10,779 nucleotides of DNA. Source: Turicibacter sp. GTDB lineage: Bacteria; Bacillota; Bacilli; MOL361; Turicibacteraceae. The notes under the pieces are model-generated. The model did not search any database. It was not told the origin of the DNA and was given only the letters and a program-made list of their open reading frames with translations. The position numbers and the translations under genes were made by a program. Shown piece after piece: positions 8,802 to 10,779 of the stretch (position 1 is its first letter; each line of letters starts with the position of its first letter). Where the stretch lies: positions 1 to 10,779 of the forward strand of contig JAUMTV010000101.1 in assembly GCA_030531025.1 (NCBI GenBank), read 5' to 3'.

Positions 8802-8966
8802 CTATTCTTGAAGTTCAAATGATTGACAATCTGTACATTCTACTTGAGTTGGATTTTTTTCATGTGTTCCAACTTTGATTGTCTCTAATTTACAGTAGTG
8901 TTTATTTTTGTTATTAAATTTACAACTGCTAACGTTACATTTGATACTTGGGTTTTTTTCTAACAT
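8802..8966 (-). CDS. DUF1540 domain protein (small, Cys-rich)
   Basis: A 54-residue protein matching the DUF1540 pattern: IKC-x4-C near the start, then C25, and C-x2-C near the end (Cys10, Cys15, Cys25, Cys44, Cys47). The clustered Cys suggest metal binding, but the function of the family is unknown; members are common in Firmicutes. The ATG at 8966 was chosen over upstream in-frame ATG 9065 because GGAGG lies 8 bases before it and homology to the family begins just after it. The upstream extension would also overlap the promoter. The gene is divergent from the alpha/beta hydrolase gene, with a palindrome inside its promoter. Confidence 0.85.
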   Translation of the reverse strand: MLEKNPSIKCNVSSCKFNNKNKHYCKLETIKVGTHEKNPTQVECTDCQSFELQE

Positions 8967-9036
8967 ACCTAAATCCTCCAGACTGAGAAGTTTGTTGTGT
9001 GTCACAACAATAATAGTATGGTGTTTGATTGTGTCG

Positions 9037-9065
9037 AATATAAGTGTAAAATGTTTACAATCCAA
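9037..9065 (-). promoter_or_regulatory. promoter of DUF1540 gene
   Basis: On the minus strand TTGGAT (9065-9060), a 17-base spacer and TATATT (9042-9037) form a good sigma-A promoter, with a leader of about 60 bases before the start codon. Its -35 lies back to back with that of the divergent promoter, 5 bases apart. Confidence 0.65.
9045..9059. promoter_or_regulatory. 15-bp palindrome in DUF1540 promoter spacer
   Basis: TGTAAA-ATG-TTTACA has perfect 6-bp arms and lies exactly between the -35 and -10 boxes of the minus-strand promoter, the classic place for a repressor. No regulator is recognised. Confidence 0.5.
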
Positions 9066-9142: not shown

Positions 9143-10108
9143 ATGAAAAAGAAGAAAGTATTGATTGGATCGGGAATTGCTACAGCGACTTCGGCTGCAG
9201 TTGTTGGTGCAGCAACATGGATTATTGGTGGAATGGTTTATGATGGAACGGTTGGTAAAAAAGCATCCGTTAAAGCAGAAGAGATGGAAGAATTTTATTC
9301 AAATCGAGAAGATAAAGTGTTAGAGAAGTTAGAGAAATATGAACATGAGACCGTGTTTGTAAACAGTGAGGAAAATAGTTACGAAGTCGAAACACTTAGC
9401 ATTAAGTCAAATCAAGAAACGTCAGATGCAATGATTGTCGTTCATGGTATTGGAAGTAATTATCATGAAGTCTTAAATGTGGCTTTTAATTATTTAGAAA
9501 ACGGGTATAACGTTGTTGTTTATCATCAAAGAAATACGGGATTAACAGGTGGAGATAACTTTACCTTTGGTTTATATGAACGCTTCGACTTAGAAGCTGT
9601 CGCGGAGTATACACGCGCTCTTTATCCAGGTGGAATCATCGGAGTTCATGGATTTTCAATGGGAGCAGCTACGTCAACGATGCATACTGAGCTAAATGAA
9701 GAAAGTAAAAATGTTGATTTTTATGTGTTAGATGCGCCTTATCATACAATGGAGAGTGCAGTCGAACTCGGAATTATTGCAGAGAATATTCCGTTTTTAC
9801 CTGTTAGCTTCGCCAAATGGGCGGGAAATGTTGTCTTAAAAGTGAAAGAGCGTTTAACTTACGATGATATTCAACCAGTTGATGCGGTAAAAAATATTAC
9901 GGTCCCTGTTCTATTGATTCATGGAAAAGAAGATAAGGTGACATCACCTGAAAGTAGTCAGTATATCTTTGATGCTATTCCACATGATAAAAAAGCTTTA
10001 TGGTATATTAACGGATTAGGTCATTGTGAAGCCGATAGTGTGATGGAAAAAGAATATTTTGATGGAATTTATCAATTTATTGCAACATATATGAAGTCAG
10101 GAGAATAA
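9143..10108 (+). CDS. membrane-anchored alpha/beta hydrolase (serine hydrolase)
   Basis: A 321-residue protein with a short basic start (MKKKK), one Gly/Ala-rich membrane segment (about residues 6-32) and a coiled, charged linker (40-68), then an alpha/beta hydrolase domain. The oxyanion-side HG motif (VVHGIGSN, 99-106), the nucleophile elbow GFSMG with Ser172, the acid in LLIHGKEDKV (Asp264) and the histidine in GLGHCE (His294) give a complete catalytic triad. The layout resembles S9/YqkD-like esterases or peptidases; the natural substrate is unknown. The domain probably faces outside, as no retention signal argues otherwise, but topology is uncertain. GAGGTG (9132-9137) precedes the ATG. 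The gene is monocistronic, divergent from DUF1540, and the terminator overlaps its stop codon. Confidence 0.87.
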   Translation: MKKKKVLIGSGIATATSAAVVGAATWIIGGMVYDGTVGKKASVKAEEMEEFYSNREDKVLEKLEKYEHETVFVNSEENSYEVETLSIKSNQETSDAMIVVHGIGSNYHEVLNVAFNYLENGYNVVVYHQRNTGLTGGDNFTFGLYERFDLEAVAEYTRALYPGGIIGVHGFSMGAATSTMHTELNEESKNVDFYVLDAPYHTMESAVELGIIAENIPFLPVSFAKWAGNVVLKVKERLTYDDIQPVDAVKNITVPVLLIHGKEDKVTSPESSQYIFDAIPHDKKALWYINGLGHCEADSVMEKEYFDGIYQFIATYMKSGE

Positions 10109-10122
10109 TCCTGACTTTTTTT
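10094..10122 (+). terminator. terminator of hydrolase gene
   Basis: AAGTCAGGA (10094-10102) and TCCTGACTT (10109-10117) form a perfect 9-bp stem whose loop is GAATAA, including the stop codon itself. Seven T follow the C at 10115. The last codons of the gene are therefore part of the hairpin. Confidence 0.92.
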
Positions 10123-10167
10123 CTAAAATTTTGAATAAATAACCAAATAATAGAAATAATAGTGAAG

Positions 10168-10194
10168 GTGACAAAACTGCAAGGTTATTGTCAC
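10168..10194. promoter_or_regulatory. inverted repeat upstream of micropeptide genes
   Basis: GTGACAA (10168-10174) and TTGTCAC (10188-10194) form perfect 7-bp arms with a 13-base spacer. It is centred about 50 bases upstream of the TATAAT at 10227. With no good -35 there, it could be an activator site. Alternatively TTGTCA (10188-10193) may itself be a -35, paired with a poor -10 (TAATCT, 10211-10216). Confidence 0.5.
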
Positions 10195-10226
10195 GTAGTG
10201 AAATAGGAGATAATCTAATTGAAGGG

Positions 10227-10232
10227 TATAAT
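10227..10232 (+). promoter_or_regulatory. possible -10 box of micropeptide operon
   Basis: A perfect TATAAT lies 30 bases before the first micropeptide start. No acceptable -35 is at 16-18 bases, which would fit an activator-dependent promoter using the inverted repeat upstream. Confidence 0.4.
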
Positions 10233-10262
10233 GAATACATCAAATAACGAGGAGATGATACA

Positions 10263-10349
10263 ATGAAACGATTCTTAGAAGTGATTCAAGTGATTGTCTT
10301 AGTGGTCATGGCTGGTTATGATGAACGCGCCTTTCAATTAGAAGCTTAA
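10263..10349 (+). CDS. hydrophobic micropeptide 1 (28 aa)
   Basis: A 28-residue peptide starting MKRFLEVIQVIVLVV, followed by MAGYDE and a polar tail. GAGGAG (10249-10254) lies 8 bases before the ATG. It shares with the next peptide the pattern MK-x2-LEV-x2-V-x3-VV-x2-GY-x-E, 11 identical residues in the first 21. At four of the identical positions (V7, V15, G18, E21) the codons differ silently, which suggests selection on the peptide and argues against chance. Residues 4-17 could form a short membrane helix or beta-rich strand. No signal peptidase site or known pheromone motif is visible. No family is recognised; signalling, toxin or membrane-regulatory roles are only possibilities. Confidence 0.6.
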   Translation: MKRFLEVIQVIVLVVMAGYDERAFQLEA

Positions 10350-10362
10350 AAAGGAGACTATA

Positions 10363-10434
10363 ATGAAAGTAATTTTAGAAGTTTTAGAAGTGGTGATCCA
10401 CGTGGTGTTATTAGGATATCAAGAGGTAAAATAG
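10363..10434 (+). CDS. hydrophobic micropeptide 2 (23 aa), paralogue of peptide 1
   Basis: A 23-residue peptide starting MKVILEVLEVV and ending LLGYQEVK. AAGGAG (10351-10356) is 6 bases before the ATG, an ideal ribosome binding site, just after the stop of peptide 1 (13-base gap). It lacks the polar tail of peptide 1 but keeps the LEV, VV and GY-x-E positions. The pair looks like an old tandem duplication. Val, Leu and Ile make up more than half of it, so membrane association is likely. Function unknown. Confidence 0.6.
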   Translation: MKVILEVLEVVIHVVLLGYQEVK

Positions 10435-10445
10435 GAGTGTCAAAG

Positions 10446-10490
10446 ATGTTAGTTAATATAAAGAGTCCGAACATCAAAAAAAATCGATGA
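10446..10490 (+). CDS. possible third micropeptide (14 aa), overlapping terminator
   Basis: ATG 10446 opens 14 codons beginning MLVNIKSPNI and ending in basic residues (KKNR). AGGAG (10433-10437) lies 8 bases before it and overlaps the stop of peptide 2. The frame runs through the loop of the terminator and stops inside it, so ribosome movement here could affect termination. It is unlike peptides 1 and 2. The spacing is good but the frame is so short that chance is a real option. Confidence 0.35.
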   Translation: MLVNIKSPNIKKNR

Positions 10491-10504
10491 TTCGGACTTT
10501 TTTT
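10464..10504 (+). terminator. terminator of micropeptide operon
   Basis: AGTCCGAA (10464-10471) pairs with TTCGGACT (10491-10498), extended by CATC/GATG (10472-10475, 10486-10489) across a single bulged A, and followed by seven T. It closes the micropeptide unit. Confidence 0.9.
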
Positions 10505-10562
10505 AATTTCAATTATTTAGATAAGTCCAGATAAGGATTTAACATCATAAAAAGGTTTAAAG

Positions 10563-10659
10563 CCCTAGCAATTGAGGATACATTTTCTTCGAAAATGGTA
10601 GGTGACCCATTCCCTAGCAATGGAGGGATAGATTTCTTTCAGAAATCGCTAGGTGACCC
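10563..10659. ncRNA. tandem structured element, two hairpin units
   Basis: Two adjacent units, 10563-10608 and 10612-10659, share the frame CCCTAGCAAT - (T/G)GAGG - ATA - hairpin - TAGGTGACCC. The inner hairpin is CATTTTC/GAAAATG in unit 1 and GATTTCT/AGAAATC in unit 2, both perfect 7-bp stems with a TTC loop; several base pairs differ while pairing is kept. The outer stem is CCTAGC/GCTAGG in unit 2 and partly kept in unit 1 (CCTA/TAGG). A purine-rich 5' bulge of 11-12 bases is conserved, and its GGG could pair with the CCC after the unit. No Rfam family is recognised, and either strand may be the functional one. Confidence 0.55.
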
Positions 10660-10674
10660 CTGGACTATAGTCTG

Positions 10675-10705
10675 TCTTAGTGTTAAAGCGGCTTACCAAC
10701 TAAGA
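10675..10705. repeat. hairpin preceding and entering the 55-bp repeat
   Basis: TCTTAGT (10675-10681) and ACTAAGA (10699-10705) form a perfect 7-bp stem around a 17-base loop. The right arm lies inside the 55-bp repeat and is unchanged in the left copy (positions 8-14), whose left arm is outside the window. A nearby GACTATAGTC (10663-10672) is a perfect 10-base palindrome. Confidence 0.5.
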
Positions 10706-10746
10706 TTGATGTAGCATTATAAAATACATTTCTGTTTATATATAGA
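10692..10746. repeat. 55-bp repeat, right copy
   Basis: It matches window positions 1-55 at 54 of 55 positions. Here it follows the tandem hairpin element, which suggests that the full repeat includes those hairpins and that the left copy is cut by the window edge. It is followed by a GC-richer stretch (CCATCACGCCTGGAGGGC) that has no counterpart in the left copy. No gene is seen from 10505 to the window end. Confidence 0.85.
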
Positions 10747-10779
10747 CCATCACGCCTGGAGGGCACCACAATAAACGAA

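Follow-up and report, generated by a model that had tools for sequence, protein, structure and literature searches.

Near its 3′ end, the window (the whole 10,779-nt stretch of Turicibacter DNA that was analysed) carries two consecutive short reading frames on the plus strand. The first, p1 (10263..10349, stop included), has 28 codons and encodes MKRFLEVIQVIVLVVMAGYDERAFQLEA, and the second, p2 (10363..10434, stop included), has 23 codons and encodes MKVILEVLEVVIHVVLLGYQEVK. Each is preceded by an AGGAG Shine-Dalgarno site on the same strand, at 10250..10254 for p1 and 10352..10356 for p2, with 8 nt and 6 nt between AGGAG and ATG, respectively; the p1 site is kept in a related Turicibacter genome, G002. 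The coordinates and sites given for this tandem pair in a preliminary description of the DNA were verified, as was the pattern MK-x2-LEV-x2-V-x3-VV-x2-GY-x-E that the two peptides have in common, and direct reading of the codons agreed that four of the 11 shared residues (V7, V15, G18 and E21) are encoded by different codons. After the initial Met, p1 and p2 are identical at 10 of 22 positions, which was equalled in 1 of 100,000 shuffles, and their BLOSUM62 score was equalled in none of 100,000. Random sequence generated with the dinucleotide make-up of the window (2 Mb) contained 183 ORFs of 20–60 codons with a Shine-Dalgarno-like site and 0 tandem pairs of ORFs at most 40 nt apart, even though similarity of the peptides was not demanded. 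Taken together with the substitution pattern described below, p1 and p2 are very probably real, coding genes, and the pair probably arose by tandem duplication. A TTG-initiated mini-ORF of 15 codons that overlaps the p1 start in the window was rejected, since its frame is closed in G002.

The upstream neighbour is an alpha/beta hydrolase gene (9143..10108, +; Pfam Hydrolase_4) whose product has an N-terminal hydrophobic stretch and whose stop lies 154 nt from p1. It serves here as a syntenic marker and is a candidate partner only. Further upstream, an 87-residue ORF on the minus strand (8802-9065) lies between two genes and has several cysteines in C-x-H-like and C-x2-C-like spacing.

Promoter region, terminator and third reading frame

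The preliminary description had framed the unit with a TATAAT, an upstream inverted repeat and a strong terminator. A −10-like box for p1, TATAAT, is present at 10227..10232 (+), and G002 has TATTAT at the corresponding position. A −35 box is missing, as the hexamers 16–18 nt upstream are AGGAGA, TAGGAG and ATAGGA, and the hexamers upstream of TATTAT in G002 are the same. The inverted repeat GTGACAA-13-TTGTCAC was found at 10168..10194 and would be a candidate operator or RNA hairpin. Its outer GTGA...TCAC is retained in G002, and the hairpin has a folding energy of −11.1 kcal/mol in the window and −7.3 kcal/mol in the G002 stretch. The window and G002 share 82% identity over 209 nt upstream of and including the p1 start, and since this stretch is mostly non-coding, the conservation between the two there is not specific to the reading frame; it points to a retained promoter region. 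The presence of a −10 box without a −35 box, together with the conserved inverted repeat, suggests that the p1 promoter is probably activator-dependent and that the peptides would be made conditionally. Downstream of p2, an intrinsic terminator (10464..10505, +) consists of a stem at 10464-10498, which folds at −14.3 kcal/mol, followed by a T run; it is missing from the list of the terminator scanner, presumably because its 10-nt loop exceeds the scanner limit of 8.

A third ORF of 14 codons, p3 (10446..10490, +), had also been proposed. Its open frame and its own AGGAG (10433-10437) are indeed present, but it is unsupported as a gene. Compared with its counterpart in G002, which overlaps a lengthened p2, there are 5, 3 and 4 differences at codon positions 1, 2 and 3, so that no codon bias is seen, and the ORF lists of G001 and G003, two further Turicibacter genomes, show no p3-like frame behind the peptide. 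On these grounds p3 was rejected as a gene and is best seen as a run into the terminator.

A dispersed repeat lies 3′ of the peptides (10548-10779). It comprises a pair of half units, each about 50 nt long (CCCTAGCAAT...GGTGACCC), and another, separate unit of about 88 nt, which is also found by itself. At a threshold of E 1, there were at least 65 matches in G002, at least 46 in G005, 24 in G004, 15 in G003 and 10 in G001, and at one place in G002 (L067) the repeat forms a tandem run with 51-nt steps. No Rfam family matched this repeat at its gathering score.

Distribution and coding pattern of the peptides in Turicibacter

Among named relatives, the one closest to the locus was a Turicibacter MAG, which a scan with the hydrolase identified at 85% identity, with more distant matches in Clostridium gasigenes and Romboutsia; when the peptides were searched against these three loci by tblastn, a convincing match was found in the Turicibacter MAG only. 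Among five Turicibacter genomes, four (G001, G002, G003 and G005) have one or two family members with an open frame, as the check in the preliminary description would require. G001 and G003 each have a single p2-like peptide, MKAILEVVEVVIQVVILGYQLKD and MKAILEVLEVVVQVVIFGYQLED, respectively. Both types are intact in G002, where p1 has 29 residues and p2 (L035) has 30, because its stop is replaced; the extension adds two extra cysteines. In G005 (L038), p1 is intact and a broken remnant occupies the place of p2; parts of the former p2, and of the sequence after it, can still be aligned. Orthologues of p1 are thus found in G002 and G005 and those of p2 in G001, G002 and G003, and among the four relatives the intact pair occurs in G002 alone, with one intact copy in the other three. 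A family profile gave E-values of 4.2e-12 to 1.1e-16 for five places in the four genomes; the profile had been built from the very sequences it then matched.

In each of the four carrier genomes, the family members lie 3′ of the same alpha/beta hydrolase gene, and the order AraC-hydrolase-peptide is the same in all four, while the surroundings in G004 differ. The hydrolase is present in all eight genomes of the order that were searched (the five Turicibacter and three others), and four of these (G004, G006, G007 and G008) have no full-length match to the peptides; therefore, the peptides are not strictly tied to the hydrolase. A tie was also rejected as a reading of the proximity, since synteny extends over the entire neighbourhood and G004 lacks the peptide despite having the hydrolase.

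To a wider scale, no further full-length relative was found in a class sample of 395 genomes. Matches at E 0.05 or better occurred in 13 of these, namely the four known genomes and nine with partial matches that cover 11–19 of 28 positions and contain an internal stop in three cases. The phylum sample gave matches in 7 of 392 genomes, which are the same four plus three of the partial ones, with no full-length newcomer. The partial distant matches were taken as chance, and within this sampling the peptide family appears to be confined to Turicibacter. A mobile origin was considered and rejected: a tblastn search with one hybrid query, run with the low-complexity filter and a cut-off of E 10, found no peptide match in phages or plasmids, which gave short weak matches only at the DNA level (best E 0.02), and 101 pattern matches in viral contigs yielded 0 confirmed loci.

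Eight residues (M1, K2, E6, V7, V10, V14, G18 and Y19) are invariant across the seven peptides. Variable columns were counted over codons 2–23 in four p2 and three p1 sequences. For the pooled set, 18, 9 and 24 of 44 columns varied at positions 1, 2 and 3, respectively, with Fisher values of 0.007 for the third-position excess and 0.0018 for the second-position deficit. The corresponding counts were 9, 4 and 14 of 22 for p2 (0.0085 and 0.0073) and 9, 5 and 10 of 22 for p1, which is not significant alone (0.21 and 0.086). Across nine orthologue pairs, pN/pS was 0.30–0.49. The fraction of neutral simulations that stayed open with as few amino-acid changes was 0.0036 for the window and G001 and 0.0043 for G002 and G003, and 0.05–0.16 for the other six of eight orthologue pairs. 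Within the spacer that follows the hydrolase, the sole stretch that aligns between the window and G003 is 10353-10422, which corresponds to the p2 ribosome binding site and ORF; between the window and G001 it is 10363-10422, with 323 of the 605 G001 spacer bases being N. These results point to a protein-coding pattern of substitution that is clear for p2 and weaker for p1. Accordingly, the earlier claim of synonymous-biased change stands for p2 and for the pooled set, and maintenance by selection is supported for p1 and p2 together (frames open in four of five genomes, no indel in the aligned ORFs, biased change), but not for p3.

Peptide properties and possible modes of action

The maximum hydropathy over 15 residues is 2.33–2.85 in all seven peptides (23–30 aa), and the residues that follow Y19 sum to a neutral or negative charge in all seven, with K or R present in five. 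We propose that a single small transcript codes for one such hydrophobic micropeptide, of 23–30 residues, or for two paralogous ones, and that each would form a single helix over residues 3–19, with a narrow polar stripe made up of K2, E6 and positions 9, 13 and 20. The peptides would reside in or on the cytoplasmic membrane and act by binding and modulating a membrane partner, for which E6, V10, V14 and G18 could be a contact face. In permutation tests, the conservation moment at 100 degrees had a p value of 0.37 and the hydrophobic moment at 100 degrees one of 0.11; since neither helical moment passes, the polar stripe is a reading and not a result. Likewise, the spacing of E6/V10/V14/G18 is suggestive of a helical contact face, yet with a permutation p of 0.37 it was set aside as a finding. 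At 180 degrees the conservation moment had a p value of 0.11, so a strand is a possible alternative conformation. Octanol sums for residues 3–19 were −2.27 to +0.35 and became −4.29 to −9.23 with neutral Glu, and full membrane insertion is thus borderline because of the charged Glu in the core. The preliminary suggestion of membrane-active or signalling peptides is therefore retained in its first half, with which the composition is consistent; signalling has no support of its own.

We put at about one in two the probability that these are Turicibacter-restricted membrane micropeptides with one helix each, which are made from a small mRNA of their own and probably modulate a membrane partner. 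Modulation of a partner is the most economical choice, and we infer it from hydropathy and position.

The main alternative is a type I toxin-like module, in which p1 and p2 would perturb the membrane and their mRNA would be silenced by an antisense RNA whose start lies within p2 or shortly behind it. The size and hydrophobicity of the peptides fit this class as outlined in PMC8309996 (see also PMC7699646), and in all four p2-carrying genomes the minus strand has a promoter-like site over p2, compared to none of four for the plus strand. In the window, the site is TTGACA-19-TATCCT (10413..10443, −), a weak candidate antisense start that reads back over p2 and p1, is the same in G002 and may be due to chance. 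However, there are two independent sites at most, because the window and G002 share one and G001 and G003 have another elsewhere; each is expected in about 0.20–0.24 of resampled sequences, a control that was chosen after the hits, and G005, which has p1 only, has no such site. According to the same review (PMC8309996), type I membrane toxins have cationic residues, generally at the C-terminus, with some exceptions and an acidic Fst also listed; of the seven tails after Y19, five contain K or R and none is net positive. In addition, no described toxin family was matched, although profiles are weak on such short peptides, and the single syntenic place with vertical inheritance differs from a mobile pattern. 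Overall, we regard a toxin-like module as unlikely, if still the strongest competitor of partner modulation. A more elaborate reading, a new Turicibacter-restricted micropeptide switch in which the paralogous membrane peptides p1 and p2 come from an activator-controlled mRNA, are perhaps countered by an antisense RNA from within p2, and co-assemble in the membrane so as to tune, in the gut, a membrane enzyme or the state of the membrane, is improbable as a whole.

Somewhat less probable again is an extracellular role, with secreted or surface-acting peptides that resemble pheromones or phenol-soluble modulins. The arrangement of p1 and p2, two leaderless frames in tandem that each have a Shine-Dalgarno site, resembles the psm-alpha layout. 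For the seven members, no pheromone or phenol-soluble-modulin Pfam family was listed at E-values of up to 10; genes for an exporter or receptor are absent next to the peptides in the mapped loci, as judged by a few named domains; and the uninterrupted hydrophobic core and mostly negative charge argue against this reading. Equally doubtful is that the segment acts as RNA or DNA (an sRNA or regulatory leader) with incidental frames. The upstream non-coding block is conserved as much as p1 between the window and G002, but the alignments to G001 and G003 are limited to the p2 ORF region and change follows codon positions. Moreover, there was no Rfam match at gathering scores, and an E-value search of 9900-10779 gave 17 weak matches, none near the gathering score. 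Finally, attenuation leader peptides for a downstream branched-chain amino acid gene would explain Val/Ile/Leu-rich peptides ahead of a terminator and the sub-threshold matches to IlvGEDA_leader (PF08046) in two of the seven peptides (12.9 and 12.3 bits, cut-off 25), but are very improbable because, in three of four relatives (G001, G003 and G005), the next gene found runs convergently; in G002 it is a same-strand ORF with a lipoprotein-looking start, and the window ends before its next gene.

Comparison with known small peptides

No family in Pfam, NCBIfam or PADLOC claims the peptides, the nearest in Pfam being IlvGEDA_leader at half its cut-off. PHROGs gave just two unnamed families (E 0.046 and 0.05, one member each) and the PDB one weak cathelicidin match (E 0.37). 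A search for Turicibacter sORF literature found none, and among papers on Turicibacter small proteins and on T. sanguinis RNA-seq or operons, no title concerned this locus. Since gene callers mostly skip genes of fewer than 30 codons, a coding-supported micropeptide family in a gut genus would be a testable addition. With the pair present in the window and G002, one copy in each of G001 and G003, and a p2 remnant in G005, these loci allow the capacity of a single copy to be compared in nature. Turicibacter has few genetic tools. If the antisense or membrane readings are true, the locus would represent a new toxin-like or membrane-tuning module in this genus.

Like the membrane-type type I toxins (Fst/Ldr, Ibs and TisB among others; PMC8309996), p1 and p2 have fewer than 60 residues and one hydrophobic segment, and appear to lie on their own small mRNA with a terminator; unlike these, they have no family match and no net-cationic tail, occupy one syntenic locus, and have a putative antisense RNA at most. 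With the phenol-soluble modulins they share tandem leaderless micropeptide genes, and differ from them in lacking a Pfam match and in their longer uninterrupted hydrophobic core and mostly negative net charge. Branched-chain operon leaders (PF08046) resemble them in Val/Ile/Leu-rich composition before a terminator and give a weak match below the cut-off, but do not fit the convergent next gene in most relatives and leave the invariant E6 and GY unexplained. KdpF, CydX and AcrZ are examples of small membrane proteins with one helix, each of which modulates a membrane complex. Compared to these, p1 and p2 have no partner complex alongside and no family match, and occur as tandem paralogues in the window and G002, while their size, hydrophobic core and short polar tail are alike. 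From sequence, we consider p1, p2 and their relatives to be a new family among the small hydrophobic bacterial peptides.
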